Source of the DNA: Crambe crambe
Lineage: Eukaryota; Porifera; Demospongiae; Poecilosclerida; Crambeidae
Length of the DNA stretch: 64,000 nucleotides
Direction: 5' to 3'
NCBI GenBank assembly: GCA_963924555.1
Contig: OZ004583.1
Span: 2,389,501-2,453,500 of the forward strand
The translations under genes and the position numbers were made by a program. The first letter of the stretch is position 1. Each line of letters opens with the position of its first letter. Of this stretch, positions 19,669-62,854 are shown one piece after another. Under the pieces are notes generated by a model. It did not search any database, had not been told where the DNA came from, and worked only from the letters and a program-made list of their open reading frames with translations.

Positions 19669-22600
19669 CTAGTGATTGACCTCTTCTTGCTCATCAAGCA
19701 CACCAACTAAAGTTGTATGGACTTTCTGTTTATCAATACAATGTACAGCTGACCGAAATCTATTTCCACCTTCAGCTCGCTTAAACAGTACAGTATCAGA
19801 CATCAAATCTTCATCACTCTGTGATTCATCCCAAGAATTTCCAGCACTGTTCCCTGTGTAGTGAAGAGATTTTCTGCGCATCACCTTTATCTTTAAGAAA
19901 CGATAGAGACCAGTTTTTTCCATCAGTTTATATGGAATATAGGCGAGCATACAAACAAGGGGAAGCCATATGAAGCAGTATTGAGTCAAATAGAGACCCA
20001 TAAAGACCTCATTCTCCAGGCTTTGATGTCTTCCATACAGGGAATACCCATGAATATTAACCGAAATAGAATTGATGATTGCAAGATTGAGGAAGATCAA
20101 TATATCAACGAAATTGAAAACCTCTCTTTTGTATGGCTTGAAAATAGCCAAAAGGGCTATCATTATGGCGATGAGAATTTGCTGTATGATAAACCGAGAG
20201 AAGTGGTCCTGTATGGTCACATATGAAGCTATAACACTCAAACGAAATATGAAATACAGGCCCACGAAGATACGGCGATTGGGTTTGTGGTAACCTTGGA
20301 ATGCATCCAGAAAAGCATGTATGGAGAGAGTCGGCCATATTCGCTTGAAACATGAGAATTTCTCATTGTCTAGGAGGCGATCGATAAGTTGAGGCAAACC
20401 AAGGAGAAATAGAGGAGGTAACAGAACAAATATTATCATAATAAGGATTGCAATCATACCATAAGGCAAGAGGAATTCTTTACTGATAAAGGAGAGGTGT
20501 CCTGCCAAACTCACTCGTCCATCATTCAGTGTTGTCCCATTCTCGTCAAAGAACTTGTGTGTTGCTAAAATTCTCATGGAAACGAAACTAAACTTGGCAT
20601 ATGAGAGAAGAATGAATGACGACAAAGCGAGAAGCAGTTGGCTATTTCTATGACTCCTTCCGCCACTATTGAATCCAAGATGGCTGCCTGATGATACAGC
20701 GTCTCGTCTGTTAGGTCTTCTCTTGAAGCAGAAGCATTTGATCCTCTTTAGCTCCATTACGAAGTAAATCATCAAAATGATGAGCAAGGGAAGGCCTGCT
20801 AGTGTATATTCAAGGCATAGCACATCCAGCGTATTGAGGCTTGTGCTGATGCAAAATGGCTCCATCATATCTGCATACGATACGAGATTAAATGTTCCAT
20901 AGACAAAAAGATACGCTTTACGCAGATTAGTAGTGTCAAAATGACTACTGGCCGAGCCATCCACAACAAACATCTCAATACTAAGCATCTGTGCAAACAA
21001 AATGAATCCACTCACTGCACTGCTTGTTAGCTTCAGATTGAAAAAGATTATAGCCATAAAGAAGAGAATGTACGGCACATATGCTAAGATCACGTATAAA
21101 GCGATATTCTTTACCAGATTTGTTTTTTCGTTGCACGGAGTACACACATAGTCGTATGAATTGATAGCTGTGGCAAAGCCTTCTTTACATTTGCCACACA
21201 GTGGACCCGTTCTATTTCTGATTCCACAGACTGCTTCGTCCAATTCACTGCATAATTTGGGAAGCTTGCAGGTATTATCATTGTTGAAATATATCTCGCT
21301 GTAAAGATTCGGCAACTGACCCATTACCAGTTTTCCTTTTCTGAGTCCAGTGGGGTCCACTCCTATCCAGTAATTGCAAGGAATGTGTGCCTCATAAGTC
21401 AGCAAAGAACAATTCAACTTGTTTAAGAAGCTAGAATCACGACAATAGCACACACCTCGAGAGACAGCATTCATTCGCGAAGGGTTGGTAATCTCCAAGT
21501 TCGGTGTTCGGAAATGAAAGCCTGTAGGACATGCCTGCAGATAGATTTTGATTTGTAGCACGTGAGGCCTTGAGTCGATACTTTCTAGTTCAAGAGTTAT
21601 TGTGGTGTTTTGCATTCCTGTAATGACTAAATAGTTTCCAGATAAGATAGAGTAAGCCGGATCAACTCGAGCAACTTCGGTGCCATTAACAGGGTGTATT
21701 TTGGATGTATAGCTTGTCAAAGTAGTGATGTTATGATCAAGATCATCAAGCACGGTAATGGGAAGAATGAAAGCTTTTCCGGGATAAGATTCTATTTGTG
21801 ACGTGTTTGTAAATTTATATTCATCTCCCTGCGTTGTGATCTCATCTGTGCAGTCACCATCGATAAAAGTCCAGTGTGGGTTGATGCAAAAGAGAAGGGA
21901 GCGATTTAGTGGTGTGTTTTTATCAATGCTACCAAGAGCACATGGATACACTGATGTTGAAAAAATTGAGCTAGCAGACACTCCACTTGATGTCTTGTTG
22001 GAGTACAGAGGTTCTCTGACTGGTCCAGTAGATGTATTGTTGAAGAAGGTAAAGGATGCTCCCCAGTCTTGTTCTGGAATAAAAGGATCCTTGTATTGAA
22101 TAAAACACAGAAAATAATCCTTCAGTACTCCTTGGGCTCTGTACAAGTTATAAATAGCCCCTCCTTCATGTGCTGAATTATGGGCAAAAAACATTCTTGT
22201 GTTATTGTCGACGATAGCATGTGAATTCTCTAAAAGAGCCAGTGCCCCTCCCGTGTCTCCTATGTTGCCCACAAAGGACATATTAGAGTTACAAAATTCA
22301 ACACTCTCTCCCACAATGGCAATAGCCGTCCCATAGTTCTCGGAGAATGATAAATTCGACCTGAAAATCAAGGGGATACGAAAGGAATAGACCACTCCCA
22401 ATCCCACGTCATAGTTCGATATTTGTGGTTCAAAGTTGATAGTGTTGTTTTGAATTGTGGAATTTTCGATTGAAACAGGTTTTATGATTCCAGTGAAATA
22501 GATGGGACGGAACTTTAACTGAATTGCAGCACCTGTACGCCCTATATTTTCACGAAATGTGCAATTCATAATCTTCAAGGAAGTGGCCAGTTTAGATCGT

Positions 22601-23832
22601 TGATACGCTGGTGAGAATGAAAGACCTCCTCCACGCAATGCACGGTTGTGTACAAAGTGGCTTGTAACTATGGAAATGCTATTTCCTTTTAAGGACTTCT
22701 GCCAAAAGGGAGTGTCAGAGTTGGAACCAAAATCTAGTAGAGATGTGATTCTCATTCCACCTCCTGCACCAAAGGTATGTGGCTGGTTACATTCGTTGTT
22801 TTCAAAAATTGCTCGCTCAATTTTGACTTCATTACCAATGCTGTTGTCTTCAAATGCAACATAGAGTCCTCCACCAAAGTACGCTCTGTTTTCTTTGAAT
22901 CGGCAATCAATGACTTCAATGCTGTTATTACTGGCATTACTTCTGAAGAAAACAGCCAGTCCTCCACCTACCCCCTGTCCAATTCTTTTATGTAACACAC
23001 GAGATGTCTGAGATGCTTTGGCTCTGTTATACTGAAAATTAGAATGGTAGAAGGTGTAGTTCGAATCTTTGTTATGAGATGATTGATGTCTTGCGGCATT
23101 GCATGTTTGGTTTGCAGGGATACAGTATGTAAATGCCACGATGAATCCTCCCCCACCTCCTCCACTGTCGTTCAGAAAACTGTTATTATGGAAGTCAGAA
23201 TCATACACATTCACTGTTCCATCCACATCATACATACCGACCCCTAGGGAATCTGGACCATGTTGGACAGTCACTCGACAGAAAGAGACGTCAGTACAGT
23301 TATAGAAGAACAAACCAACCTTGAATGGAATCAGAGAGAATTCAGTTATGCTGAAGTTTCTACTTGTACTAACTCTCAGGACTCCGCAGTATGAGAACTC
23401 AATGTTTTGTATTCGTATTCGATCTGCATTCCAGAATCCCAGTCCAGCTCCTGGCGAGCACTCAATTTGAGCACTATCAGTTGTGCTGTTACCAATAAAG
23501 GCAATGTCAGAGACTTCTGTAAAGAAAGTAGCATTGGAGTCCTCCTTTAAATAGTGAGTGATGTCACTCCCTGTAGCAAACACGTATGCTGTAGAATTTC
23601 TGTGAAACTTCAAAGCTGTATTGATATCTGGACAATCCATTTCTGTACTGAACTCCTTAGGGTTACAGTCACCATCTCCATTTGACTTGGTTGTTGGATC
23701 TATTCTGATGACATAATCATATTCTTGATGGTAATCTACAACACAGACATTAGTGGAAGCAATGCTTTCTGCAAAACAATATGTCAATATCGAGAAGAAA
23801 ATGATCAAAGGTAGTCTTTCTGCATCCATCAT
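19669..23832 (-). CDS. Beta-helix / Cys-rich / multi-pass membrane protein, copy 1
   Basis: Uninterrupted ORF of 1387 aa. A signal peptide covers residues ~1-22. A long extracellular part (~35-760) has repeated FxxN...GG(A/G)(I/L) units (ENRAYFGGGLYV, HNRALRGGGLSFS, EGGAIYN), the pattern of right-handed beta-helix proteins such as chlamydial Pmp proteins, and many N-glycosylation sites. A Cys-rich stalk follows (~765-900) with CPTGFHF, WIGVDPTG, ELDEAVCG and RTGPLCGKCKEGFAT. About nine or ten hydrophobic spans (~905-1308) include SSAVSGFILFAQMLSIEM and FKPYKREVFNFVDILIFLN. The cytoplasmic tail is acidic. It is the most divergent of the four paralogues in this window, except at its 5' end, which nearly matches copy 2. 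It is head-to-head with the small membrane protein gene at 24329. I know no assigned function. Loss of charge or gaps in the spans would argue against a channel or receptor role. Confidence 0.88.
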   Translation of the reverse strand: MMDAERLPLIIFFSILTYCFAESIASTNVCVVDYHQEYDYVIRIDPTTKSNGDGDCNPKEFSTEMDCPDINTALKFHRNSTAYVFATGSDITHYLKEDSNATFFTEVSDIAFIGNSTTDSAQIECSPGAGLGFWNADRIRIQNIEFSYCGVLRVSTSRNFSITEFSLIPFKVGLFFYNCTDVSFCRVTVQHGPDSLGVGMYDVDGTVNVYDSDFHNNSFLNDSGGGGGGFIVAFTYCIPANQTCNAARHQSSHNKDSNYTFYHSNFQYNRAKASQTSRVLHKRIGQGVGGGLAVFFRSNASNNSIEVIDCRFKENRAYFGGGLYVAFEDNSIGNEVKIERAIFENNECNQPHTFGAGGGMRITSLLDFGSNSDTPFWQKSLKGNSISIVTSHFVHNRALRGGGLSFSPAYQRSKLATSLKIMNCTFRENIGRTGAAIQLKFRPIYFTGIIKPVSIENSTIQNNTINFEPQISNYDVGLGVVYSFRIPLIFRSNLSFSENYGTAIAIVGESVEFCNSNMSFVGNIGDTGGALALLENSHAIVDNNTRMFFAHNSAHEGGAIYNLYRAQGVLKDYFLCFIQYKDPFIPEQDWGASFTFFNNTSTGPVREPLYSNKTSSGVSASSIFSTSVYPCALGSIDKNTPLNRSLLFCINPHWTFIDGDCTDEITTQGDEYKFTNTSQIESYPGKAFILPITVLDDLDHNITTLTSYTSKIHPVNGTEVARVDPAYSILSGNYLVITGMQNTTITLELESIDSRPHVLQIKIYLQACPTGFHFRTPNLEITNPSRMNAVSRGVCYCRDSSFLNKLNCSLLTYEAHIPCNYWIGVDPTGLRKGKLVMGQLPNLYSEIYFNNDNTCKLPKLCSELDEAVCGIRNRTGPLCGKCKEGFATAINSYDYVCTPCNEKTNLVKNIALYVILAYVPYILFFMAIIFFNLKLTSSAVSGFILFAQMLSIEMFVVDGSASSHFDTTNLRKAYLFVYGTFNLVSYADMMEPFCISTSLNTLDVLCLEYTLAGLPLLIILMIYFVMELKRIKCFCFKRRPNRRDAVSSGSHLGFNSGGRSHRNSQLLLALSSFILLSYAKFSFVSMRILATHKFFDENGTTLNDGRVSLAGHLSFISKEFLLPYGMIAILIMIIFVLLPPLFLLGLPQLIDRLLDNEKFSCFKRIWPTLSIHAFLDAFQGYHKPNRRIFVGLYFIFRLSVIASYVTIQDHFSRFIIQQILIAIMIALLAIFKPYKREVFNFVDILIFLNLAIINSISVNIHGYSLYGRHQSLENEVFMGLYLTQYCFIWLPLVCMLAYIPYKLMEKTGLYRFLKIKVMRRKSLHYTGNSAGNSWDESQSDEDLMSDTVLFKRAEGGNRFRSAVHCIDKQKVHTTLVGVLDEQEEVNH

Positions 23833-33800: not shown

Positions 33801-33853
<53 letters not shown>

Positions 33854-39714: not shown

Positions 39715-42700
39715 CTAATCAGTATTGGTGCCAATGCCTGACGATCCTGTGCTCAATTCTCCATGATCCGCTACACCCACTAGAGTTGATAGAGTGGTGT
39801 GGGTATTTGATCCACGCTGCCCATCTCCATTATCAGTATCATGGTGTAAGAATGAACGATACCGATTCCCATCTTCAGCACGTCTGAAAAAATCCGTGTC
39901 AGCCAGCAAATCTTCATCGTCTGTTAGCTTGCCAACATTAACACTAGCACTCTCATCAATATCGTCTGAGCTTATGCTCAAATTGCCTATCTTCATCTTT
40001 GCAGTGATCCAGCGATAGAGGATAGTTTTTTTCAGAATCTTGAAGGCTAGGTAGGTAAGCATATAGATGAGAGGAAACCAAATGAAGCAGAACTGAGTCA
40101 AATAGAGACCTATGAACACTTTATCATCCAACCCTTGAACATAGAGAGACAGCCCGTAGATAATGATGGATAAAGAGTTGATTATTGAAAGATTGAGAAA
40201 TAAGAGTGTATCAACAAAGTTGAATGCTTCTTTTTGGTAAGGCCTGAAAACAGCCACGAGAACAATCATTATAGTGAGGAGAACTTGCTGTGTGATGAAC
40301 TGAATGAAATAATCAGCTGAGCTCACACTAATGGCTATGATGCAGAGACGAAATACGAAATAGAGTCCCACAAAAACCCGGCGATTAGGCTTGTGGTAAC
40401 CTTGGAATGCATCCAGGAAGGCATGCATAGATAAAGTGGGCCACACTCTCCTAAAGCGTGTAAATGCTTCCTTATCAAGAAGGCGATCGATTAGCTGTGG
40501 GATTCCAAGGAGAAAGAGAGGTGGCAGCAGAACAAAGGCGATCATGAACAGTATAGCCAACATACCATAAGGTAAGAGAAACTCCCTGCTTGCAAAGGAA
40601 AGGTGACCAGCCAACGCAATTCTAGCATCATTTAATATGATTCCATCCTCATCGAATAATCTCTGCATTGCTAGAGACTTCATAGTCACAACACTGAACT
40701 TAGTGTAAGAGAGCAAGATGAATGAAGCTAAGGCATGAAGTAATGGCCTACTTCGATGTCTCCTTTTACCTTTCTTGAGTATCGGGAAGTTGATGGATGA
40801 TCGTATGCTTATCTTCTCTCGACAGCAAAGACATTTGATTGTTTTCAGTTTCGTTAAGAGATAGATCATTAGGACAATCATTAAAGGGAGTATAGCAAGT
40901 GTGTACTCGAGGCAAAGCACGTCAAGTGTATTGAAGTTTCTGCCAATGCAAAATGGATCCATCACATCTGCAAAAGAGTTGAGATTGAAAATTCCATAGA
41001 CAAAGAGGTATGATTTCCGGAGGTTTGTTGTGTTGAAGAGGCTGTGGTTTTTGGTGTTCACACTGAAGATTTCAATGCTTATCATTTGTGCATACAAGAT
41101 GAACCCAGTCACTGCACTGCTTGTCAACTTCAGGTTGAAAAAGATGATGCCAATGATAAGAAGGATGTAAGGCACATATGCAAAGATTAAGAACAAAAAG
41201 ATGTTCTTGACCAGATTGGTCGTATTGTCACATCGAGTACACACATAGTCGTACGAGTTAACAGCCGTAGAATAGCCGTCTTTACATCGGCCACATAGTG
41301 GACCAGTTCTGTTTCTGACTCCACACACTGCCTCATCTAATTCATCATAGGAATTCGGGAGTAGACAGAAAGTGGCACCTTTGAAATACTGCTCACTGTA
41401 AAGGTTTGGTAATAGGCCCATCACAAGTTTTCCGTCTCTGAATCCAGTGGGGTCTTCCCCAATCCAATAGTTCCAGGGAATCTGAGCTCTATAGTTCAAT
41501 GTAGAACAATTCAAAGTATTCTGAAAGCTCTCAGGGTAACAATCACACGTCCCAATTTCATCTGAAATATTAGAAGGCGATTTGAAATAGAAGCCTGGAG
41601 GACATTTTTGGAGATCAATTTCAAGTCGAAGAATGTAAGGTCTAGCTCCTGAGCTCTCTAGTTCTAATGTTATGGTGTTATTTTCCTGTCCTGTGATGAC
41701 CAGGTAATTTTCAGAAATCAGGGAAAATATAGGGTCCACTCGAGCAACTTTGGCACTATCACTCACAGATTTGATTTTTAATGGCATGTAGCCTGTTGAG
41801 TTTGTGATATTACGCTTCAGATCATCAAATACAGATATGGGCAGCATGAAGCCTTGACCAGGAAATGACGTTATTCTCGATTTGTTAGTGAATACATACT
41901 TGTCTCCTAGTGTCTTGATCTCTTTGGTACAATTACTATCCTTGAAAGTCCAGTGGAGATTACTACAGAACACAAGTGATTGACTTAGTGGCATATCTTC
42001 ATCGACTTCATTAAGAGCACATGGATATACTGAAGTGGAGAATATAGAGTTTCTGGGAAGTCCAGTGGATGTGTTATTAAAGAATGTAAAAGAGGCCTTC
42101 CATTTCTGCCTATCAGAGAATGGATCATGATACCGAATGAAGCAGGCAAAGTTGGATCTGAGTGCGCCTTGGGCTGCATTATAGTTGTAAATCGCTCCTC
42201 CCTCGCGGGCTAAGTTATGGGCAAAGTACATCTTGGTGTTATCGTTGATGACAATATGCGAATCTCCCAAAAGAGCCAGTGCTCCTCCAGTATCTCCCCT
42301 GTTATTCACAAAGGACATGTCAGAATCGCAGAAGTCAGCATGTGTTCCCACAATGACCACTGTACTCCCATGATTATCAGAGAACAACGAAACTTTAGTA
42401 AAGTTTAAGGAGACAAGGTAAGTGTAGATCACTCCCATCCCAGCTTCATAACTTGGTGCTTTTGGAGCATAATCGATGGAGTTTTGCTCGATGGTGCAGT
42501 TCTCAATCAACACAGGACTGACTAGTCCAGCAGAGTAAACATGACGCATTTCCAAATGCACTGCAGCTCCAAGAAGAGCCACATTTTCTTGGAAAGTGCT
42601 GCCGATAATCCTCACTAAAGTTGTCTGCTCAATCAACAGTCTAGTTTGATGTGTTGGAGAAAAAGAAAATGCTCCTCCTTGTAATGCACGATTACGTACA

Positions 42701-43932
42701 AAATGGCTTCCAGTTACAGTCACACTATTTCTCTTCAAAGATTTATCCAAAAGGGGACCTTGGCCTAAGTCTAGTAGAGATGTGATTCGCATTCCACCAC
42801 CCGTACCGAATTTTGTCAAACGATCACAGCTATTCTCTTCGAAGACTGTTCGCTCGACTTCCACTTGATTACCCATGCCACTATCCTCGAACATGACATA
42901 GAGTCCACCACCTAGCATTGCTTTGTTGTTTTTGAATTGGCAGTCGATAACTTGAATACTGTTATTGCTGGCATTGCTTTTGAAATAGAGAGCCAGTCCA
43001 CCCCCTAAGCCAAGTCCAATATGGTTTTGTTTAGAAGGGATTATACGAGATGTCTGAGTTGCTTTAACTTCGTTGTAGTTGAAATTGGAACGATAGAAAG
43101 TGTACTTTGAATTCTTGTTATGAGACGTTTGATGGTTGGTGGCATTGCACATGTTATGGTTGCTGGGAACACAGTATGAAAACTCGATGATGAACCCTCC
43201 ACCATCATCATTTATTGTGTCATTTCCAAAAGTATTGTTTATAAAGTTTGAATCATACACATTCACTGTTCCATCCACATCGTACATACCGACTCCTAGG
43301 GAACTCGGACTTTGTTGGACTGTCACTTGACATAAAGAGACGTCAGTACAGTTATAGAAGAACAAACCAACCTTGAATGGAATCAGAGAGAATTCAGTTT
43401 TGCTGAAGTTTCTACTCGTACTAACTCTCAGGACTCCACAGTATGATAACTCAATGTTTTGTATTCGTATTCGATCCGCATTCCAGAATCCCAGTCCAGC
43501 TCCTGACAAGCACTCAATTTGAGCACTATCAGTTGTGCTGTTACCAATAAAGGCAACGTCAGAGAGTTCTTCAAAGAAAGTAGCATTGGACTCCTCCTTT
43601 AAATAGTGGGTGATGTCACTCCCTGTAGCAAACACGTATGCTGTAGAATTTCTGTGAAACTTGAAAGCTGTATTGATATCTGGACAATCCATTTCTTCAC
43701 TAAACTCCTTAGGGTTACAGTCACCATCTCCATTCGACTTGGTTGTCGGATCTATTCTGATAACATAATTGTATCCCCAATGGAAATCAGTAGAGGAGCA
43801 CACTTCATCATAATTGGGTGGTTTGTCTTCTTTGAAGCTTTCATCATAATCAGTTTGAAGACTTTCTGCAGAGCAATGGCTCCAGGTCATGATCAGGATG
43901 AAGACCAAGAGAAGTAGTTTTGTTATATCCAT
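39715..43932 (-). CDS. Beta-helix / Cys-rich / multi-pass membrane protein, copy 2
   Basis: Intronless coding region of about 1405 aa. I chose the ATG at 43932 (MDITKLLLLVFILIMTWSHCSAES, a clear signal peptide) over 43935 and 43950. A beta-helix part with FxxN...GGA units spans ~50-770 (KNNKAMLGGGLYV, VNNRGDTGGALALL). The Cys-rich stalk covers ~775-905 (CPPGFYF, WIGEDPTGF, ELDEAVCGVRNRTGPLCG). Nine or ten hydrophobic spans lie at ~907-1290. The Ser/acidic tail ends near SSGIGTNTD and holds RRAEDGNRYRS, conserved in copies 3 and 4. It is divergent from copy 3, with which it shares the TATA block and leader intron (44119-43960). Compared with copy 1, the first ~180 residues are almost the same at the DNA level, while the rest is clearly more diverged. 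Function unknown; a surface sensor or recognition receptor is an inference from the layout. Confidence 0.88.
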   Translation of the reverse strand: MDITKLLLLVFILIMTWSHCSAESLQTDYDESFKEDKPPNYDEVCSSTDFHWGYNYVIRIDPTTKSNGDGDCNPKEFSEEMDCPDINTAFKFHRNSTAYVFATGSDITHYLKEESNATFFEELSDVAFIGNSTTDSAQIECLSGAGLGFWNADRIRIQNIELSYCGVLRVSTSRNFSKTEFSLIPFKVGLFFYNCTDVSLCQVTVQQSPSSLGVGMYDVDGTVNVYDSNFINNTFGNDTINDDGGGFIIEFSYCVPSNHNMCNATNHQTSHNKNSKYTFYRSNFNYNEVKATQTSRIIPSKQNHIGLGLGGGLALYFKSNASNNSIQVIDCQFKNNKAMLGGGLYVMFEDSGMGNQVEVERTVFEENSCDRLTKFGTGGGMRITSLLDLGQGPLLDKSLKRNSVTVTGSHFVRNRALQGGAFSFSPTHQTRLLIEQTTLVRIIGSTFQENVALLGAAVHLEMRHVYSAGLVSPVLIENCTIEQNSIDYAPKAPSYEAGMGVIYTYLVSLNFTKVSLFSDNHGSTVVIVGTHADFCDSDMSFVNNRGDTGGALALLGDSHIVINDNTKMYFAHNLAREGGAIYNYNAAQGALRSNFACFIRYHDPFSDRQKWKASFTFFNNTSTGLPRNSIFSTSVYPCALNEVDEDMPLSQSLVFCSNLHWTFKDSNCTKEIKTLGDKYVFTNKSRITSFPGQGFMLPISVFDDLKRNITNSTGYMPLKIKSVSDSAKVARVDPIFSLISENYLVITGQENNTITLELESSGARPYILRLEIDLQKCPPGFYFKSPSNISDEIGTCDCYPESFQNTLNCSTLNYRAQIPWNYWIGEDPTGFRDGKLVMGLLPNLYSEQYFKGATFCLLPNSYDELDEAVCGVRNRTGPLCGRCKDGYSTAVNSYDYVCTRCDNTTNLVKNIFLFLIFAYVPYILLIIGIIFFNLKLTSSAVTGFILYAQMISIEIFSVNTKNHSLFNTTNLRKSYLFVYGIFNLNSFADVMDPFCIGRNFNTLDVLCLEYTLAILPLMIVLMIYLLTKLKTIKCLCCREKISIRSSINFPILKKGKRRHRSRPLLHALASFILLSYTKFSVVTMKSLAMQRLFDEDGIILNDARIALAGHLSFASREFLLPYGMLAILFMIAFVLLPPLFLLGIPQLIDRLLDKEAFTRFRRVWPTLSMHAFLDAFQGYHKPNRRVFVGLYFVFRLCIIAISVSSADYFIQFITQQVLLTIMIVLVAVFRPYQKEAFNFVDTLLFLNLSIINSLSIIIYGLSLYVQGLDDKVFIGLYLTQFCFIWFPLIYMLTYLAFKILKKTILYRWITAKMKIGNLSISSDDIDESASVNVGKLTDDEDLLADTDFFRRAEDGNRYRSFLHHDTDNGDGQRGSNTHTTLSTLVGVADHGELSTGSSGIGTNTD

Positions 43933-45302: not shown

Positions 45303-48300
45303 ATGAATCTCACAAAACTTCTTATCTTTATCCTGACCTGGAGGATCCATTGCTCTGTAGAAAGCTTCCAAACTGGTTATGACAAAAGTTTTGAAGATGA
45401 TAAGCCCTCCAATTATGATGAAGTGTGCTCTTCCACTGATTTCCATCAAGAATACAATTATATCATCAGAATAGATCCGACGACCAAGTCAAATGGAGAT
45501 GGTGACTGTAACCCTAAGGAGTTCAGTACAGAAATGGATTGTCCAGATATCAATACAGCTTTCAAGTTTCACAGAAATTCTACAGCATACGTCTTTGCTA
45601 CAGGGAGTAACATCATCCACTATTTAAAGGAGGACTCGAATGCTACTTTCTTTACAGAAGTCTCTGACATTGCCTTTATTGGCAACAGCACAAATGATAG
45701 TGCTAGAATAGAGTGCTTGTCAGGAGCTGGACTGGGATTCTGGAACACGGATCGAATACGAATACAAAACATCAAATTTTCATACTGTGGAGTTCTGAGA
45801 GTTAGTACAAGTAGAAACTTCAGCAAAACTGAATTCTCTCTGATTCCATTCAAGGTTGGTTTGTTCTTCTATAACTGTACTGACGTCTCTTTCTGTCAAG
45901 TGACAGTCCAACATAGTCCGAGTTCCCTAGGGGTCTGTATGTATGATGTGGATGGAACAGTGAATGTGTATGATTCAAACTTTATAAACAATACTTTTGG
46001 AAATGACACAATAAATGATGATGGTGGAGGGTTCACCATCGAGTTTTCATACTGTGTTCCCAGCCACCATAACATGTGCAATGCCACCAACCATCAAACG
46101 TCTCATAACAAGAATTCAAAGTACACTTTCTATCGTTCCAATTTCAACTACAACGAAGTTAAAGTAACTCTGACATCTCGTATAATCCCTTCCAAACAAA
46201 ACCATATTGGACTTGGTCAAGGTGGTGGACTGGCTCTCTACTTCAAAAGTAATGCCAGCAATAACAGTATTCAAGTTATCGACTGTCAATTCAAAAACAA
46301 TAAAGCAGTGCTAGGCGGTGGACTCTATGTTTTATTTGGGGATACCAGCATGAGTAATCAAGTGGAAGTCGAGCGAACAGTTTTTGAAGAGAATAGCTGT
46401 GATTTCAAGACGAAATTTGGTGCAGGGGGTGGAATACGAATCACATCTCTACTAGACTTAGACCAAAGTCTCCTTTTGGATAAATCTTTGAAGAGGAATA
46501 GTGTGACTGTATCAGGAAGCCATTTTGTAAATAATCGTGCATTGCAAGGAGGAGCATTTTCTTTTTCTCCGACACATCAAATTAGACTGTCGATTGAGCA
46601 GACAACTTTAGTGAAAATTATTGGCAGCACTTTCCAAGGAAATGTGGGTCTTCTAGGAGCTGCAGTGCATTTGAAAATGCGCCACATTTTCTCTGCTGGA
46701 CTAGTCAGTCCTGTGTTGATTGAGAACTGCACCATCGAGCAAAACTCCATTGAGTATGCTCCAGAGGCACCAAGATTTGAAGCTGGGATGGGAGTGATCT
46801 ATGCTTTCCATGCTCCTTTAAACTTCACCAAAGCTTCGTCGTTCTCTAATAACAATGGGAGTGCAGTGGCCATTATGGGAACACATGCTGACTTCTGCGA
46901 TTCTGACATATCCTTTGTGAATAACAGAGGACATACTGGAGGAGCAATGGCTCTGAGAGATTCACATATTGTCATCAATGATAACACCAAGATGTACTTT
47001 GCCCATAACTTAGCCTGTGAGGGAGGAGCAATTTACAACTTTAATGCAGCCCAAGGTGAATTCAGTTCCGATTTTGCCTGCTTCATTCGGTATCATGATC
47101 CATTCTCTGATAGACAAGAATGGAAGGCTTCTTTTACTTTCTTTAATAACACATCCACTGGACTTCCCAGGAACTCTATATTCTCCACTTCGGTGTATTC
47201 ATGTGTTCTTAATGAAGTTGATAGAAATATACCACTGAGTCAATCACTTGTGTTCTGCAGTAACCCCCACTGGACTTTCAAGGATAGTAATTGTACTGAA
47301 GAGATCAAGACACTAGGAAACGAGTATAATTTTACTAATGAATCAAGAATAACATCATTTCCTGGTCAAGGTTTCATGTTGCCCATATCTGTATTCGATG
47401 ATCTGAAGCATAATGTCACAAACTCAACAGGCTATATGCCATTAAAAATCAAATCTGTGAACGATAGTGCCAAAATTGCTCAAGTGGACCCTAAATTCTC
47501 CCAGATTTCTGAAAATTACCTGGTCATCACAGGACAGGAAAATAACACCATATCATTGGAACTAGAGAGCTCAGGACCTAGACCTTACATTCTTAGACTT
47601 GAAATTGATCTCCAAAAATGTCCTCCAGGCTTCTATTTCAAATCAGCCTCTAATATTTCAGATGAAATTGGGACATGTGATTGTTACCCTGAGAGCTTTC
47701 AGAATGCTTTGAATTGTTCTACGTTGAACTATAGAGCTCAGATTCCCTGGAACTATTGGATTGGGGAAGACCCCACTGGATTCAGAGACGGAAAACTTGT
47801 GATGGGCCTATTACCAAACTTTTACAGTGAGCAGTACTTCAAAGGTGCCGCTTTCTGTCTACTCCCGAATTCCTATGATGAATTAGATGAGGCAGTGTGT
47901 GGAGTCAGAAACAGAACTGGTCCACTATGTGGCCGATGCAAAGATAACTATTCTACGGCTGTTAACTCATACGACTATGCGTGTACTCGATGTGATAATA
48001 CGACCAATCTGGTCAAGAACATCTTTCTATACTTAATCTTTGCGTATGTGCCTTACATCCTTCTTATCATTGGCATCGTCTTATTCAACCTGAAGTTGAC
48101 AAGCAGTGCAGTGACTGGGTTCATTCTATGTGCACAGATGATAAGTGTTAAGATCTTCAGTATGAATACTAAAAACCACATTCAATTTGACACAATGAAT
48201 CTTGAGAAATCTTACCGCTTCCTTTATGGAATATTCAATCTCGACTCCTTCGCAGATGTGATGGATCCATTTTGCATCGGTAGAAACTTCAATACACTTG

Positions 48301-49493
48301 ATGTGCTTTGCCTCGAGTACACACTTGCTATACTCCCTTTAATGATTGTCCTAATGATCTATCTCTTAATGAAACTGAAAACAATCAAATGTCTTTGCTG
48401 CCAAAGGAAAATGATAAGCATACGATCATCCATCAATTTCCCAATACTCAAGAAAGGTAGAAGACATCAAAGTAGGCCATTACTTCATGCCTTAGCTTCA
48501 TTCATCCTGCTCTCCTACACTAAATTCAGTTTTGTTACTATGAAGTCTCTAGCAATGCGTAGATTTATTGATAAGGATGGAATCATATTAAATGATGCTA
48601 GAATTGCATTGGCTGGTCACCTTTCCTTTGCAAGCAGGGAGTTTCTCTTACCTTATGGTATGTTGGCTATACTGTTCATGATCATCTTCGTTCTGGTGCC
48701 ACCTCTCTTTCTCCTTGGAATCCCACAACTGATTGATCGCCTTCTTGACAAAGAGGTGTTCTCGTGTTTTAGGAGAATGTGGCCCACCTTATCCATTCAT
48801 GCCTTCCTAGATGCATTCCAAGGTTACCACAAACCTAATCGCCGGATTTTTGTGGGGCTCTACTTTGGATTTCGTCTCTGCATCATAGCCTCTAGTGTGA
48901 GCTCAGCTGATTATTTCACTCAGTTCATCACACAGCAAGTTCTCCTCACTATAATGATTGTTCTCGTGGCTGTTTTTAGGCCTTATAAAAGAGAAGCATT
49001 CAACTTTGTTGATACACTCTTATTTCTCAATCTTTCAATAATCAACTCTTTATCCATCATTATCTATGGGCTGTCTCTCTATGTTCAAGGGCTGGACGAT
49101 AAAGTGTTCATAGGTCTCTATTTGACTCAATTCTGCTTCATCTGGTTCCCTCTCATCTATATGCTTACCTACCTAGCCTTCAAGATTCTAGAAAAAACTG
49201 GCCTCTATCACTGGATCACTGCAAAGATGAAGATAAGCAATTTGAGTGTAAGTTCGGACAACATTGCTAGTAGTGTTAATGTCGGCAAGCTAATTGATGA
49301 TGAAAACTTGCTGGCTGACTCAAATTTTTTCAGACGTGCTGAAGATGGGAATCGGTATCGTTCCTTCATACACCATGATACTGATAATGGTGATATGCAG
49401 CATAGATCAAAGACCCACACAAATCTAGTGGGTGTAGCAGATCATAGAGAATTGAGCACGGGGTCATCAGGCATTGGCACCTATACTGAATAG
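45303..49493 (+). CDS. Beta-helix / Cys-rich / multi-pass membrane protein, copy 3
   Basis: Intronless coding region of 1396 aa. The start is the ATG at 45303 (MNLTKLLIFILTWRIHCSVES, a signal peptide); the codon before it is GTG in the leader. The architecture matches copies 2 and 4: beta-helix with GG(A/G) turns (~50-770, e.g. LGGGLYVLF, EGGAIYNFN), Cys-rich stalk (~772-900, CPPGFYF, RTGPLCGRCKDNYST), nine or ten hydrophobic spans (~902-1294, e.g. YGMLAILFMIIFVLVPPLF, FNFVDTLLFLNLSIINSLS) and a Ser/acidic tail with FRRAEDGNRYRS and GSSGIGTYTE. It differs from copies 2 and 4 by scattered substitutions and a one-residue gap near ALRDSHIV. Promoter, leader intron and 3' flank are shared with copy 4, so the two are a direct segmental duplication. 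Function unknown. Confidence 0.88.
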   Translation: MNLTKLLIFILTWRIHCSVESFQTGYDKSFEDDKPSNYDEVCSSTDFHQEYNYIIRIDPTTKSNGDGDCNPKEFSTEMDCPDINTAFKFHRNSTAYVFATGSNIIHYLKEDSNATFFTEVSDIAFIGNSTNDSARIECLSGAGLGFWNTDRIRIQNIKFSYCGVLRVSTSRNFSKTEFSLIPFKVGLFFYNCTDVSFCQVTVQHSPSSLGVCMYDVDGTVNVYDSNFINNTFGNDTINDDGGGFTIEFSYCVPSHHNMCNATNHQTSHNKNSKYTFYRSNFNYNEVKVTLTSRIIPSKQNHIGLGQGGGLALYFKSNASNNSIQVIDCQFKNNKAVLGGGLYVLFGDTSMSNQVEVERTVFEENSCDFKTKFGAGGGIRITSLLDLDQSLLLDKSLKRNSVTVSGSHFVNNRALQGGAFSFSPTHQIRLSIEQTTLVKIIGSTFQGNVGLLGAAVHLKMRHIFSAGLVSPVLIENCTIEQNSIEYAPEAPRFEAGMGVIYAFHAPLNFTKASSFSNNNGSAVAIMGTHADFCDSDISFVNNRGHTGGAMALRDSHIVINDNTKMYFAHNLACEGGAIYNFNAAQGEFSSDFACFIRYHDPFSDRQEWKASFTFFNNTSTGLPRNSIFSTSVYSCVLNEVDRNIPLSQSLVFCSNPHWTFKDSNCTEEIKTLGNEYNFTNESRITSFPGQGFMLPISVFDDLKHNVTNSTGYMPLKIKSVNDSAKIAQVDPKFSQISENYLVITGQENNTISLELESSGPRPYILRLEIDLQKCPPGFYFKSASNISDEIGTCDCYPESFQNALNCSTLNYRAQIPWNYWIGEDPTGFRDGKLVMGLLPNFYSEQYFKGAAFCLLPNSYDELDEAVCGVRNRTGPLCGRCKDNYSTAVNSYDYACTRCDNTTNLVKNIFLYLIFAYVPYILLIIGIVLFNLKLTSSAVTGFILCAQMISVKIFSMNTKNHIQFDTMNLEKSYRFLYGIFNLDSFADVMDPFCIGRNFNTLDVLCLEYTLAILPLMIVLMIYLLMKLKTIKCLCCQRKMISIRSSINFPILKKGRRHQSRPLLHALASFILLSYTKFSFVTMKSLAMRRFIDKDGIILNDARIALAGHLSFASREFLLPYGMLAILFMIIFVLVPPLFLLGIPQLIDRLLDKEVFSCFRRMWPTLSIHAFLDAFQGYHKPNRRIFVGLYFGFRLCIIASSVSSADYFTQFITQQVLLTIMIVLVAVFRPYKREAFNFVDTLLFLNLSIINSLSIIIYGLSLYVQGLDDKVFIGLYLTQFCFIWFPLIYMLTYLAFKILEKTGLYHWITAKMKISNLSVSSDNIASSVNVGKLIDDENLLADSNFFRRAEDGNRYRSFIHHDTDNGDMQHRSKTHTNLVGVADHRELSTGSSGIGTYTE

Positions 49494-54100: not shown

Positions 54101-56176
54101 TTAATTATTCTTGCAACACAAATAAATGATGCATCCAAAGATAATCCATGGAACTACATTGATAAGTATAATAACAATCATTATAAGAAGGAACAACCAC
54201 ACAATACCAACTATAAAAACATAAGCATTTGCTAAGATTCCAAAGATAGCACCAACGATATAAACGATTATCCACCCTATAGTACTTTCACGAGCCATCC
54301 CAATGGTAAAGCTGAAAGGTCCTAGTAAATAAATTCCTCCATTTGTAAAGCTTAAAAAGAAATAAATTAGAATCAGGAAAGCGACACAAACTATAATCAT
54401 TACAGGACTCTTGAAAGGGTAAATGAATTTAGTACAACAATGAATCCTTTTAAATTCATTAAATTCGATGTCCATTTTTTCTTCCGGGAAATATCGACCT
54501 ACAGCCTCTCTTGCTTTCTTTTTAACTTGAAAAGTATCATCAAGTCCAGGCGTTTCAAGCATCTTCCGACACATAATAAAGATTTCAATGTAAAACTCTT
54601 GTGTCCAGTAGTACGCTACTAAAAAGAATGTCAAAGTGCCCACTATGGGAAAGATATAAGTTCCAATTATCATGTACCACAAATAGCCACTAGCCCTAAC
54701 AGGTAGACAAGGAGATTCGGAGTCAGTATAATTCTGGATTGCAGCATTATAACCATGATTATTAAAGAAATGAAGATTTTCATCATAGATTCTTTTCCCT
54801 GTGGCCACAATCATGAAGCTCTGGACAATCATTTGTAATGCAACATGAATGAAGAAATAGACCAGAAAGTAAAGGGCTTTACCAGTGGCGGTTGTACCTT
54901 TACGCTTTTCATGGATATTATATATTACACCCCCAAGAATAATAAGACGCAAGATATAGACAAATGCTACAAAGGAGAATGAAGACAATACAAATTCTAT
55001 GAGGCCCATTGTATCATCAGCAGTTCCTGATCTAAACAGTCGACCGCTCACTAAACTGAAGATGGAACATATTAAGAGTGGATAAATAAAAAATTCAGCA
55101 AGAACATTTCGCAGCAAGTTAACTAACTCTGCTAACCTGCGAAGGCCCAAAATTCCTTTGCTTTTCTTATCTTCCTTATCATCATTGTTCTCGTTATCAT
55201 TTTTATGAAAGCATTTTTTGCAAACGTTTCGTTCATAAAATGCTTCAATAGTGCTAGCAATACTCAACAATGTTGCTACTAAGCCAAATGTAAAATTAAC
55301 CCAGTCAAAGGCTCGGTGACAATCAGATTTTGCATAGTTAACGATTGAGAGGATGAGAACAACAATAGTGTACAAGAGCTCACCACCAACAACTATATCT
55401 CGCAAAAGGTGGGGAAGAAGAGGGTATATAAGTCCATCCAGAAATAGAAATTTTACACCAAGGTTTCGTGCTCTGCGTAAGCGATCTGATAAAATTTGTC
55501 GCACTTTTATTGTGTTACAAACCTCAGAAGAGCATTTGCATAGATTTTGAAATTGGCAAGCACAGGCTTGGCAAGATATATCAGTACAATGTTCACAACA
55601 AGACTCACGTGCCAGATAATCATCAACATCATCTTCCTCTCCTTCCATCTCAATGCGCTCTACAATTGCAAATATTGTAGTAGCAGTGATTTTTCTGGCT
55701 CTGGTAACTCTAACTCCAGATGGTGTTTCCTGAACAATAATAGCTTCTTGAATAGTTGCTTGATGGTGTACAGCTACTGCTCTGTTTTCATCACAAGCAA
55801 TAGCAGTAACTGAATGGGATTGGGCCTGACCAGCGGCAGCCACTGCATATGATCGACGCTCTTCTTCATTTGCAGGTACGACTGCCATTTCATTAGAAGC
55901 TGCAGCAGTAGATGAATGGGATTGGTCCTGAGTACCAGCGGCAGCCACCGCATATGATCGATGCTCTTCTCCATTCGGACGGTCATTTGCAGGTATGACT
56001 GCCATTTCGTTAGAAGCTGCAGCAGTAGATGAATGGGATTGGTCCTGAGTACCAGCGGCAGCCACCGCATATGATCGATGCTCTTCTCCATTTGCAGGTA
56101 TGACTGCCATTTCGTCAGAAGCTATGGTAAATGATTGAAATTGGGCCTGACCGGCGGCAACTACTGCTACTGCCAT
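54101..56176 (-). CDS. Multi-pass membrane protein with N-terminal tandem repeats and Cys cluster
   Basis: Single-exon ORF of 691 aa; the first ATG is used because the repeat region starts right behind it. Residues ~18-125 hold three imperfect copies of a 34-39-residue Ala/Ser-rich unit with (S/C)NEMAV(I/V)PAN, EEHRSYAVAAAG and QDQSHSSTAA. A Cys cluster follows (~192-220: CCEHC, CQACAC, CKC). Then come eight or more hydrophobic spans between ~240 and 687, with a charged Asn/Asp/Lys loop (~325-345) after a CKKC. The C-terminal quarter is extremely hydrophobic (IGWIIVYIVGAIFGILANAY) and ends CCKNN. There is no signal peptide, so the repeat-bearing N-terminus is probably cytoplasmic. The repeats are also near-identical in DNA, so their number may vary. 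I do not recognise the family; a transporter, channel or scaffold is possible. Confidence 0.75.
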   Translation of the reverse strand: MAVAVVAAGQAQFQSFTIASDEMAVIPANGEEHRSYAVAAAGTQDQSHSSTAAASNEMAVIPANDRPNGEEHRSYAVAAAGTQDQSHSSTAAASNEMAVVPANEEERRSYAVAAAGQAQSHSVTAIACDENRAVAVHHQATIQEAIIVQETPSGVRVTRARKITATTIFAIVERIEMEGEEDDVDDYLARESCCEHCTDISCQACACQFQNLCKCSSEVCNTIKVRQILSDRLRRARNLGVKFLFLDGLIYPLLPHLLRDIVVGGELLYTIVVLILSIVNYAKSDCHRAFDWVNFTFGLVATLLSIASTIEAFYERNVCKKCFHKNDNENNDDKEDKKSKGILGLRRLAELVNLLRNVLAEFFIYPLLICSIFSLVSGRLFRSGTADDTMGLIEFVLSSFSFVAFVYILRLIILGGVIYNIHEKRKGTTATGKALYFLVYFFIHVALQMIVQSFMIVATGKRIYDENLHFFNNHGYNAAIQNYTDSESPCLPVRASGYLWYMIIGTYIFPIVGTLTFFLVAYYWTQEFYIEIFIMCRKMLETPGLDDTFQVKKKAREAVGRYFPEEKMDIEFNEFKRIHCCTKFIYPFKSPVMIIVCVAFLILIYFFLSFTNGGIYLLGPFSFTIGMARESTIGWIIVYIVGAIFGILANAYVFIVGIVWLFLLIMIVIILINVVPWIIFGCIIYLCCKNN
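55865..56115. repeat. Coding tandem repeat (~105-117 bp unit)
   Basis: Words such as 'gactgccatttc(a/g)ttagaagc', 'gcagcagtagatgaatggga' and 'gcggcagccaccgcatatga' recur at ~117-bp spacing. They encode the N-terminal repeats of the multi-pass protein. Confidence 0.85.
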
Positions 56177-56245
56177 TTCTTTGCGAGAGCGATCGATCTG
56201 CTTGCGTATATCACCAGTGCATATGCTATATATCCACGACCACTG

Positions 56246-58136: not shown

Positions 58137-58289
58137 TTAATGCTTCATAAAGGCTATCTCCATGCATGCATGCAGATTCTGTTAAAGTCTTTGGAATGCC
58201 ATTAGCTAAGTTCCTTATTTTTAACATCATGCATATCAAGCCCCCCAGTCTACATAACACTGGTCTGGAGCTGAGTAGCTATATTTAGC

Positions 58290-58610: not shown

Positions 58611-58651
58611 CTGAGAGTTGTTGCCATACGAGAGTCCTCCCCCAAGGTGCG

Positions 58652-61600
58652 ATGAATCTCACAAAACTTCTTATCTTAGTCTTTATCCTGATCTGGAGGA
58701 TCCATTGCTCTGTAGAAAGCTTCCAAACTGGTCATGACAAAAGTTTTGAAGAAGACAAGCCCTCCAATTATGATGAAGTGTGCTCTTCCACTGATTTCCA
58801 TCAAGAATACAATTATGTTATCAGAATAGATCCGACAACCAAGTCAAATGGAGATGGTAACTGTAACCCTAAGGAGTTAAATACAGAAATGGATTGTCCA
58901 GATATCAATACAGCTTTCAAGTTTCACAGAAATTCTACAGCATACGTGTTTGCTACAGGGAGTGACATCACTCACTATTTAAAGGAGGACTCGAATGCTA
59001 CTTTCTTTACAGAAGTCTCTGACATTGCCTTTATCGGTAACAGCACAACTGATAGTGCTCAAATTGAGTGCTCGTCAGGAGCTGGACTGGGATTCTGGAA
59101 CACGGATCGAATACGAATACAAAACATTGAGTTCTCATACTGCGGAGTCCTGAGAGTTAGTACAAGTAGAAACTTCAGCATAACTGAATTCTCTCTGATT
59201 CCATTCAAGATTGGTTTATTCTTCTATAACTGTACTGACATCTCTTTTTGTCAAGTGACAGTCCAACATGGTCCGAGTTCTCTAGGAGTCTGTATGTATG
59301 ATGTGGATGGAACAGTGAATGTGTATGATTCAAACTTTACCAACAATACTTTCAGAAATAGCACAATAAATGATGATGGTGGAGGAGGGTTCATCGTCGA
59401 GTTTTCATACTGTGTTCCCAGCCACCATAACATGTGCAATGCCACCAACCATCAAATGTCTCATAACAAGAATTCAAAGTACACTTTCTATCGTTCCAAT
59501 TTTTATCACAACGAAGTTAAAGCAACTCAGACATCTCGTATAATCCCTTCTACAATGAACCACAATGGACTTGGTCAAGGAGGTGGACTGGCTCTCTACT
59601 TTAAAAGCAATGCCAGCAATAACAGTATTCAAGTTATCGACTGCCAATTCAAAAACAACAAAGCAATGCTAGGTGGTGGACTCTATATCTTATTTGGGGA
59701 TACCAGCATGGGTAATCAAGTGGAAGTCGAGCGAACAGTTTTCGAAGAGAATAGCTGTGATCTAAAGACGAAATTTGGTACAGGTGGTGGAATGCGAATC
59801 ACATCTCTACTAGACTTAGACCAAGGTCCCCTTTTGGATAAATCTTCGAAGAGGAATAGTGTGACTTTAACTGGAAGCCATTTTGTGCGTAATCGTGCAT
59901 TACAAGGAGGAGCACTTTCTTATTCTCTGACACATCAAATTAGACTGTCAATTGAGCAGACAACTTTAGTGAGGATTATTGGCAGCACTTTCCAAGGAAA
60001 TGTGGCTCTTCTTGGAGCTGCGGTGCATTTGGAAATGCGCCACATTTTCTCTACTGGACTAGTCAGTCCTGTGTTGATTGAGAACTGCACTATTGAGCAA
60101 AACTCCATTGATTATGTTCCGGAGGCACCAAGATTTGAAGCTGGGATGGGAGTGATCTATGCTTTCAGAGCCTCTTTAAACTTTACTAAAGCTTCGTTGT
60201 TCACTGATAATCATGGGAGTGCAGTGGCTATTGTTGGAACACATGCTGACTTCTGCGATTCTGACATGTCCTTTGTGAATAACAGAGGTGATACTGGAGG
60301 AGCACTGGCTCTTTTGGGAGATTCGCATATTATCATCAACGATAACACCAAGATGTACTTTGCCCATAACTTAGCCCGTGAGGGAGGAGCAATTTACAAC
60401 TATAATGCAGCCCAAGGCACACTCAGATCCAACTTTGCCTGCTTCATTCGGTATCATGATCCATTCTTCGATAAGCAGAAATGGAAGGCCTCTTTTACCT
60501 TCTTTAATAACACATCCACTGGACTTCCCAGAAACTCTATATTCTCCACTTCAGTGTATCCATGTGCTCTTAATGAAGTCGACAAAGATATGCCACTAAG
60601 TCAATCACTTGTGTTCTGCATTAACCCCCACTGGACTTTCAAGGATAGTAATTGTACCGAAGAGATCAAGACACTAGGAGACAAGTATATATTCACTAAC
60701 AAATCGAGAATAACATCACTTCCTGGTCAAGGTTTTGTGCTGCCCATATCTGTATTTGATGATCTGAAGCGTAATATCACAAACTCAACAGGCTACATGC
60801 CATTAAAAATCAAACCCGTGAACGAATGTGCCAAAGTTGCTCGAGTGGACTCAAAATTCTCCCTGATTTCTGAAAATTACTTGGTCATCACAGGACAGGA
60901 AAATAACACCATATCATTGGAACTAGAGAGCTCAGGAGCTAGACCTTACATTCTTCGACTTGAAATTGATCTCCAAAAATGTCCTCCAGGCTTCTATTTA
61001 AAATCGCCCTCTAATATTTCAGATGAATTTGGGACATGTGAGTGTTACCCCGACAGCTTTCAGAATACTTTGAATTGTTCTACATCGAACTATAGAGCTC
61101 AGATTTCCTGGAACTATTGGATCGGGAAAGACCCCACTGGACTCAGAGACGGAAAACTGGTGATGGGCTTATTACCAAATCTTTACAGTGAGCAGTATTT
61201 CAAAGGTGCCGCTTTCTGTCTACTCCCGAATTCCTACGATGAATTAGATGAGGCAGTGTGTGGAGTCATAAACAGAACTGGTCCACTATGTGGCCGATGT
61301 AAAGACGGCTATTCTACGGCTGTTAATTCATACGACTATGTGTGTATTCGATGTGATAATACAACCAATCTGGTCAAGAACATCTTTTTGTTCTTAATCT
61401 TTGCATATGTGCCTTGCATCCTTCTTATCATTGGCATTATCTTTTTCAACCTGAAGTTGACAAGCAGTGCAGTGACTGGGTTCATCTTGTATGCACAAAT
61501 GATAAGCATTGAAATCTTCAGTGTGAACACCAAGAACCACAGTCTCTTCAACACAACAAACCTCCGGAAATCATACCTCTTTGTCTATGGAATTTTCAAT

Positions 61601-62854
61601 CTCGACTCCTTTGCAGATGTGATGGATCCATTTTGCATTGGTAGAAACTTCAATACACTTGATGTGCTTTGCCTCGAGTACACACTTGCTATACTCCCTA
61701 TAATGATTATCCTAATGATCTATCTCTTAACGAAACTGAAAACAATCAAATGTCTTTGCTGCCAAAGGAAGAAGAGTATAAGCATACGATCATCCATCAA
61801 CTTCCCGATACTCAAGAAAGGTAGAAGGAGACATCAAAGTAGGCCATTACTTCATGCTTTAGCTTCATTCATCTTGCTCTCCTTCACTAAATTCAGTTTC
61901 ATTACCATGAGGTCTTTAGCAATGCGGAGATTATTCGATGAGAATGGAATCATATTAAACAATGCTAGAATTGTGTTGGCTGGTCACCTTTCCTTCACAA
62001 GCAGGGAGTTTCTCTTACCTTATGGTATGTTGGCTATACTGTTCATGATCGTCTTCGTTCTGCTGCCACCTCTCTTTCTACTTGGAATCCCACAGCTCAT
62101 CGATCGCCTTCTCGACAAGGAAGCATTCTCACACTTTAGGAGAATGTGGCCCACTTTATCCATTCATGCCTTCCTGGATGCATTCCAAGGTTATCACAAG
62201 CCTAATCGCCGAATTTTTGTTGGACTCTACTTTGGATTTCGTCTCTGCATCATAGCCATTAGTGTGAGCTCAGCTGATTATTTCATTCAGTTCATCACAC
62301 AGCAAGTTCTCCTCACTATAATGATTGTTCTCGTGGCTGTTTTCAGGCCTTACAAAAGAGAAGTATTCAACTTTGTCGATACACTCTTATTTCTCAATCT
62401 TTCAATAATCAACTCTTTATCCATCATTATTTATGGGCTGTCTCTCTATGCTCAAGGGTTAGACGAAGAAGTGTTCAGAGGTCTCTATTTGACTCAGTAC
62501 TGTTTCATTTGGTTCCCTCTCATCTATATGCTTGCTTACTTAGCATTCAAGATTATAGAAAAAGCTGGCCTCTATCGCTGGATCACTGCAAAGATGAAGG
62601 TAGGCAATTTGAGCATAAGTTTGAACAATAGTGCTAGTGCAGTTAATGTCGACAAGCTAACAGAGGATGAAGATTTGCTGTCAGACTCAGATTTTTTCAG
62701 ACGTGCAGAAGATGGGAATCGGTATCGTTCCTTCATACCCCATCATTCTGACAATGGCGATAAGCAGCGTGGGTCAAAGGCCCACACCAATTTAGTGGGT
62801 GTAGCGGATCATAGAGAATTGAGCATGGGGTCATCAGGCATTGGCACCTACTGA
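58652..62854 (+). CDS. Beta-helix / Cys-rich / multi-pass membrane protein, copy 4
   Basis: Intronless coding region of 1400 aa from the ATG at 58652 (MNLTKLLILVFILIWRIHCSVES, a signal peptide). The open frame extends 75 nt further upstream to an ATG at 58577, but that stretch crosses the leader intron and its taacag acceptor, so it is not used. The beta-helix part (~50-770) has NNKAMLGGGLYILF, RNRALQGGALSYS and EGGAIYNYN. The Cys-rich stalk (~775-905) has CPPGFYL, ELDEAVCGVINRTGPLCG and KDGYSTAVNSYDYVC. Nine or ten hydrophobic spans (~906-1298) include VYGIFNLDSFADVMDPFCIG and FRPYKREVFNFVDTLLF. The tail has FFRRAEDGNRYRS and ends SSGIGTY. It is a direct-duplication partner of copy 3 and also very close to copy 2 in its membrane part. 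Function unknown. Confidence 0.88.
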   Translation: MNLTKLLILVFILIWRIHCSVESFQTGHDKSFEEDKPSNYDEVCSSTDFHQEYNYVIRIDPTTKSNGDGNCNPKELNTEMDCPDINTAFKFHRNSTAYVFATGSDITHYLKEDSNATFFTEVSDIAFIGNSTTDSAQIECSSGAGLGFWNTDRIRIQNIEFSYCGVLRVSTSRNFSITEFSLIPFKIGLFFYNCTDISFCQVTVQHGPSSLGVCMYDVDGTVNVYDSNFTNNTFRNSTINDDGGGGFIVEFSYCVPSHHNMCNATNHQMSHNKNSKYTFYRSNFYHNEVKATQTSRIIPSTMNHNGLGQGGGLALYFKSNASNNSIQVIDCQFKNNKAMLGGGLYILFGDTSMGNQVEVERTVFEENSCDLKTKFGTGGGMRITSLLDLDQGPLLDKSSKRNSVTLTGSHFVRNRALQGGALSYSLTHQIRLSIEQTTLVRIIGSTFQGNVALLGAAVHLEMRHIFSTGLVSPVLIENCTIEQNSIDYVPEAPRFEAGMGVIYAFRASLNFTKASLFTDNHGSAVAIVGTHADFCDSDMSFVNNRGDTGGALALLGDSHIIINDNTKMYFAHNLAREGGAIYNYNAAQGTLRSNFACFIRYHDPFFDKQKWKASFTFFNNTSTGLPRNSIFSTSVYPCALNEVDKDMPLSQSLVFCINPHWTFKDSNCTEEIKTLGDKYIFTNKSRITSLPGQGFVLPISVFDDLKRNITNSTGYMPLKIKPVNECAKVARVDSKFSLISENYLVITGQENNTISLELESSGARPYILRLEIDLQKCPPGFYLKSPSNISDEFGTCECYPDSFQNTLNCSTSNYRAQISWNYWIGKDPTGLRDGKLVMGLLPNLYSEQYFKGAAFCLLPNSYDELDEAVCGVINRTGPLCGRCKDGYSTAVNSYDYVCIRCDNTTNLVKNIFLFLIFAYVPCILLIIGIIFFNLKLTSSAVTGFILYAQMISIEIFSVNTKNHSLFNTTNLRKSYLFVYGIFNLDSFADVMDPFCIGRNFNTLDVLCLEYTLAILPIMIILMIYLLTKLKTIKCLCCQRKKSISIRSSINFPILKKGRRRHQSRPLLHALASFILLSFTKFSFITMRSLAMRRLFDENGIILNNARIVLAGHLSFTSREFLLPYGMLAILFMIVFVLLPPLFLLGIPQLIDRLLDKEAFSHFRRMWPTLSIHAFLDAFQGYHKPNRRIFVGLYFGFRLCIIAISVSSADYFIQFITQQVLLTIMIVLVAVFRPYKREVFNFVDTLLFLNLSIINSLSIIIYGLSLYAQGLDEEVFRGLYLTQYCFIWFPLIYMLAYLAFKIIEKAGLYRWITAKMKVGNLSISLNNSASAVNVDKLTEDEDLLSDSDFFRRAEDGNRYRSFIPHHSDNGDKQRGSKAHTNLVGVADHRELSMGSSGIGTY

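Follow-up and report, generated by a model that had tools for sequence, protein, structure and literature searches.

In this study of a 64-kb stretch of the Crambe crambe genome (hereafter the window, on the 9.49-Mb contig C5 of an assembly of 143.1 Mb in 119 contigs) we found that four large open reading frames are genes under purifying selection, and that they are a small branch of a far larger expanded family with more than 100 motif copies. The encoded proteins have a well-supported predicted architecture, composed of a signal-peptide-like start, a beta-helix, a Cys-rich stalk, a nine-span membrane core and a variable tail. We tentatively read them as plasma-membrane recognition proteins of this large family, in which the beta-helix would bind a ligand and the core would signal, most likely through ions; the surface recognition or sensor role is one that we infer by reasoning from sequence, and its channel component is offered as a lead. 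A search of the open-licence literature, with subscription journals and preprints outside its reach, found no description of a beta-helix/nine-span family, which within that literature is apparently undescribed.

Four intact genes in the window

The four genes are:

19669..23832, minus strand: gene 1 (P0001), 1387 residues in a single frame, the most divergent of the four
39715..43932, minus strand: gene 2, 1405 residues in a single frame (P0002 begins at a later Met)
45303..49493, plus strand: gene 3 (P0003), 1396 residues in a single frame
58652..62854, plus strand: gene 4 (P0004), 1400 residues counted from the Met at 58652

The initial annotation described four paralogues of about 1390–1405 residues, each in one exon, and these were recovered as intact single frames (1387–1405 residues) free of internal stops; gene 4 has a second in-frame Met at 58577, and genes 2 and 3 are arranged head to head, with 1.4 kb between them. 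P0001 is 62–64% identical to the other three proteins, and genes 2–4 are 87–88% identical to each other. The evidence for constraint is the ratio of nonsynonymous to synonymous substitution rates (dN/dS), which was 0.18–0.32 in all six pairs by the Nei-Gojobori method, several of the dS values being saturated; this rules out the frames being pseudogenes or chance frames. Conservation is lowest at the N-terminus, in the latter half of the beta-helix and in the tail. Bacterial contamination is unlikely, given that the window also holds a RING/B-box/filamin/NHL protein and lies on a 9.5-Mb contig. Prokaryotic contigs (bacterial and archaeal) scanned with P0001, a search sensitive to close relatives alone, yielded no relatives, and neither did viral contigs scanned with the proteins of family loci L009 and L020. 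NCBIfam gave no match for P0001 or P0004, and PDB sequence searches (with P0001, L009, and alignments A4, A5, A6 and A7) gave nothing significant, the best E-value being 0.07.

The beta-helix ectodomain and Cys-rich stalk

The layout of gene 1, with the basis of each assignment in brackets, is:

23767..23832, minus strand: signal-peptide-like N-terminus, residues 1–22 (hydropathy; cleavage point by eye)
21934..23463, minus strand: predicted right-handed beta-helix, about residues 124–633
21118..21531, minus strand: Cys-rich stalk with RTGPLCGKC, residues 768–905 (DUF7630/laminin-EGF-like, below cut-off)
19927..21117, minus strand: nine-span membrane core, residues 906–1302 (hydropathy and loop charge)
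19672..19926, minus strand: predicted cytosolic tail, residues 1303–1387 (loop charge)

A signal peptide had been assigned to each protein; the N-terminal hydrophobic stretch passed a 19-residue hydropathy threshold in three of the four, whereas that of P0003 fell below it, yet resembles the P0004 start by eye. Modelling supports the ectodomain being a right-handed parallel beta-helix, as the model aligned with beta-helices, among which the folds listed include the bacterial adhesin PfbA. The initial annotation had likened this region to the FxxN...GGA repeats of bacterial Pmp proteins, and here the fold held up by modelled alignment but the repeats proved degenerate in the window genes: there were only 1–2 strict matches per protein (by our own pattern), Chlam_PMP (PF02415) was listed only for P0002 (E-value 2.2, 9.2 bits against a cut-off of 20.6), and POMP (TIGR01376) did not match P0001 or P0004. 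The repeat is clear in relatives (e.g., E-values of 4.1e-22 and 5.2e-19), with Chlam_PMP/POMP over cut-off in all four relatives of one set (25.8–76.3 bits) and below it in L014 (13.5 bits) and L023 (POMP, 13.6 against 15). Several relatives share an FxxN...GGA-repeat beta-helix, scoring over cut-off, with chlamydial Pmp/POMP proteins; unlike these, the sponge proteins are predicted to be anchored by nine alpha-helical spans, and no C-terminal autotransporter barrel was among the Pfam matches of the window proteins, whose C-terminal part consists of nine hydrophobic spans. Right-handed beta-helices, which are known chiefly from bacterial and phage proteins, usually serve as carbohydrate or adhesin platforms, and because of this we suggest that the beta-helix arm would bind an external ligand, either a glycan or a surface that is neighbouring or microbial.

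The stalk motif RTGPLCGxC, as previously proposed, is present in all four window proteins; genome-wide there are five copies, the four in the window and one on contig C16. The stalk cysteines resemble those of DUF7630 and laminin-EGF domains, but for DUF7630 (PF24633) the window proteins remain below the 27-bit cut-off (10.5, 16.8 and 14.7 bits for genes 1, 2 and 4; gene 3 unlisted). Across the family DUF7630 was listed for 32 of 37 members (E-values up to 10, best 2.5e-5) and laminin EGF (PF00053) for six of the 37 (best E-value 0.26), and alignment A7 (37 rows) has six invariant stalk or post-stalk positions, five of them Cys and one Gly. This disulphide-rich stalk would couple the beta-helix to the membrane.

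A nine-span membrane core

Where the initial annotation counted nine or ten spans, hydropathy together with loop charge over 36 family members (43 less near-identical rows; gene 3 not among them) predicts nine, with the N-terminus outside and the C-terminus inside; an extra short helix (about residues 967–981 of P0001) appears only in an unusable model. Net charge per 100 residues was -5.6, -0.8, -5.7 and +0.4 for the predicted outside loops, +6.7, +22.2, +10.7, +25.5 and +2.6 for the predicted inside parts, and +3.4 for the stalk ahead of span 1. N-glycosylation sequons do not separate inside from outside. A Lys in span 4 and an Arg in span 6 are each retained in at least 70% of the 36 members, one Cys of loop 2-3 is invariant in alignment A7, and a D..GP.K...R motif in the predicted cytosolic loop 5-6 is conserved in the family alignment. 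Near the C-terminus, 20 of the 36 members have an RE/EPLL-like motif that is possibly a sorting signal; the window genes are without it.

The initial annotation had proposed a resemblance of the core to TRP/FLC-type membrane domains, based on the motif FxPYKRExFNFVD. No Pfam family scored above cut-off for the core in scans of 11 and 37 members. The only lead came from PF06011 (gathering cut-off 28.5 bits), for which a whole-genome search gave three matches at E-values up to 1, none over cut-off, and none in 14 control genomes. Two of the three were in family members, L020 (1272 residues, E-value 0.0036) and L022 (1231 residues, E-value 0.6), the third being in a broken frame of 204 residues. 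Both family matches start at PF06011 position 327 and run to 379 or 405, a region that holds PYK...N..D. An hmmscan of the segments against PF06011 gave 4.2e-5 (23.0 bits) for L020, a value that is too favourable because the segment was picked from the earlier match, and 0.0059 for L022. We consider this similarity suggestive: the hint survives as sub-threshold matches in two relatives, but not in the window proteins themselves.

Fission yeast Pkd2, as described in PMC11277609, conducts Ca2+ upon membrane stretch and consists of a putative lipid-binding domain on the extracellular side, a membrane domain of nine helices and a tail in the cytosol. PMC9600462 assigns fungal TRP-domain proteins to the FLC family, terms its members putative flavin carriers and calcium regulators, and places an ML-like domain in most of the homologs tested there. 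Like these fungal TRP/FLC proteins (PF06011; S. pombe Pkd2, S. cerevisiae Flc1-3), the sponge proteins combine an extracellular domain, nine predicted helices and a cytosolic tail, which speaks for the similarity; they differ in that the ectodomain is a predicted beta-helix with a Cys-rich stalk, no ML-like domain (PF14558) was found among the Pfam matches of P0001–P0004 at E-values up to 10, there are over 100 motif copies in one genome, and no PF06011 match exceeds the cut-off. By analogy with the TRP-like channels of fungal FLC/Pkd2 type, the nine-span core would signal, ion passage (Ca2+) being the most likely means.

Polycystins and animal TRP channels (PF08016) combine a large ectodomain with a multi-span membrane part, as does the sponge family; however, PF08016 matched at only five places in the genome, in frames of 90–131 residues and none in the long frames of the beta-helix family (loci judged by frame length), and was not among the Pfam matches of the window proteins. 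We therefore rejected polycystin membership. G-protein-coupled receptor membership was rejected as well, with nine spans predicted and no 7tm family among the matches listed for 11 members or for 37 members (25 of 29 families listed for the latter). A profile check of the membrane part thus returned the sub-threshold PF06011 lead and, among the matches listed, neither a polycystin nor a 7tm model.

These results bear on a somewhat unlikely alternative, that the proteins are receptors without a pore, whose core signals to cytosolic partners via loop 5-6 and the tail while the beta-helix acts as ligand-binding arm. The conserved loop 5-6 motif would fit such a receptor, as would the high copy number, which is usual for recognition receptors; the nine rather than seven spans argue against it, as do the lack of 7tm among the matches listed for both member sets and of any signalling domain among the Pfam matches of the four window proteins. 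A transporter-type core, with the beta-helix capturing substrate, is to us the most improbable of the explanations. Flavin transport was the first role proposed for FLC proteins, the sole profile lead is to FLC/TRP, whose members PMC9600462 also terms putative flavin carriers, and Lys and Arg are conserved in the spans; nevertheless a large expansion with faster-evolving ectodomains suits recognition better.

An expanded family with helix-less members

The initial annotation spoke of a four-gene cluster and asked for a genome-wide count; the four genes are there, but the term understates the family. The pattern RTGxLCGxC has 136 copies genome-wide (56 forward and 80 reverse; control 0 and 0), and among the first 30 loci in contig order 25 have an open frame of at least 380 residues past the motif. 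A DUF7630 genome search, in which 150 of 325 candidates were scored, gave at least 122 matches at E-values up to 1, six of them over cut-off, whereas the control gave matches in two of 14 genomes and none over cut-off. Sixty-six of the 122 are in frames of at least 1000 residues and 29 in frames of 500–700 residues, and the 122 include two window genes. Neither 136 nor 122 is a gene count, as weak DUF7630 rows may be other genes and variant motifs escape RTGxLCGxC. PF02415 is unsuited to counting the family because this short model matched once genome-wide. Frames of at least 150 residues within 20 kb either side of the window had no significant match to P0001.

Three relatives are without the beta-helix:

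L046, 163-1881, minus strand: helix-less member, 572 residues
L048, 1144-2874, plus strand: helix-less member, 576 residues
L051, 1078-2898, plus strand: helix-less member, 606 residues

In each, a signal-peptide-like start (by eye) is followed by the Cys-rich stalk and then the membrane core; as every frame has a hydrophobic start of its own, an upstream exon is unlikely. Because these three lack the beta-helix, the conserved unit of the family is the stalk plus the nine-span core. A midpoint-rooted FastTree tree of 36 membrane parts placed the window genes and the short forms in a clade (support 1.0) with L050, L015, L023, L024 and L031; the node uniting the window genes with the short forms had a support of 0.78. 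Since two of these are long forms, L023 with 1272 residues and L024 with 1231, their mixing with window genes and short forms indicates that the beta-helix was gained or lost within the family. One clade member, L015 (2518-6047, minus strand), is spread over two frames whose overlap suggests a frameshift rather than an intron, which was considered; the copy has apparently either decayed or been misassembled.

On contig 3 there is an array with 11 motif copies among the matches listed, and the six that we compared (15 pairs) had ratios of nonsynonymous to synonymous differences per site (pN/pS) of 0.44–0.65 in the ectodomain versus 0.25–0.48 in the membrane part plus tail. In the central ectodomain both pN and pS were high and the length varied, which is due in part to the alignment, and the peak 50-codon ratio, 0.99, was in the poorly aligned N-terminus.

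The helix-less members and the rates also bear on whether the proteins are mainly adhesins or matrix anchors, with the beta-helix making contact and the core merely anchoring, which we judge decidedly unlikely. The bacterial adhesin PfbA among the listed folds and the 27–31 sequons per whole window protein would suit an adhesin; but core dN/dS is lower than that of the beta-helix where computable, and an inert anchor would not explain why the short members keep the core without the beta-helix.

Several observations weigh against our reading of the window genes as recognition proteins with a signalling, probably ion-passing core. The ectodomain model is weak, with a predicted local distance difference test score (pLDDT) of 40 and no Foldseek match at an E-value of 0.001, and the membrane model (pLDDT 32) was unusable and not taken into the fold search. 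Sequons also occur in the predicted-inside loop 1-2 (16 of 36 members) and tail (14 of 36), with those in the predicted-outside loops 2-3 and 4-5 in seven and 10 of 36, respectively. The window proteins give no PF06011 match, nor do longer pieces of both matching relatives or two window segments give a TRP match; PF06011 is found in just two of 37 members (best E-value 0.0012), and in the same scan the unrelated Polysacc_synt reaches 0.0018. A dN/dS above 1 was sought in the window genes and the contig 3 array, and none was seen.

A bolder version of the same reading, which we regard as unlikely, is that the family is an animal-lineage one of more than 100 giant, mostly single-exon FLC/TRP-type channels gated by a pectate-lyase-like beta-helix, forming a repertoire for chemosensation or for recognition of self/non-self and microbes, with the helix-less paralogs as shared signalling subunits. 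If recognition by these proteins is borne out, this animal would sense its surroundings via a repertoire that couples a largely bacterial and phage fold to a membrane core for which no Pfam family scores above cut-off. Its copy number and faster-evolving ectodomain make the family a direct candidate for recognizing microbes, or self versus non-self, in an early-branching animal, and the helix-less members are a ready control with which the core could be tested alone.

Probable mosaic history of gene 1, and neighboring genes

Within gene 1 one tract stands apart:

22733..23736, minus strand: tract shared with genes 2–4, DNA identity 83–84%, strongest at residues 63–182

The remaining aligned DNA pieces are 72–74% identical to genes 2–4. 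In 40-codon windows, fourfold-site differences between gene 1 and the others were 0–14% across residues 63–182 and mostly 30–70% beyond residue 182, with a single low window near residue 337. Based on this dip and the 83–84% tract, gene conversion in the N-terminal ectodomain of gene 1 is likely.

The RING/B-box/filamin/NHL (TRIM-like) protein is encoded at 251-2470 (minus strand), and a similar TRIM-like gene in two frames (L016, 831-2435 and 360-827, minus strand) was recognized by eye within the 10 kb to the left of the window. The 691-residue protein encoded at 54101-56176 (minus strand) begins with Ala-rich repeats, has a cluster of Cys residues as well as several membrane spans, and gave no Pfam match at E-values up to 10. 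Near a family member, a frame with ankyrin-like repeats was noted by eye (L013, 2-727, plus strand). At 9233-9862 (minus strand) there is a 209-residue protein without a significant Pfam match, of which two near-copies were seen by eye within 20 kb (L016, 8901-9515, and L017, 3027-3704, both minus strand), the result of a local segmental duplication that may have included the TRIM-like gene.

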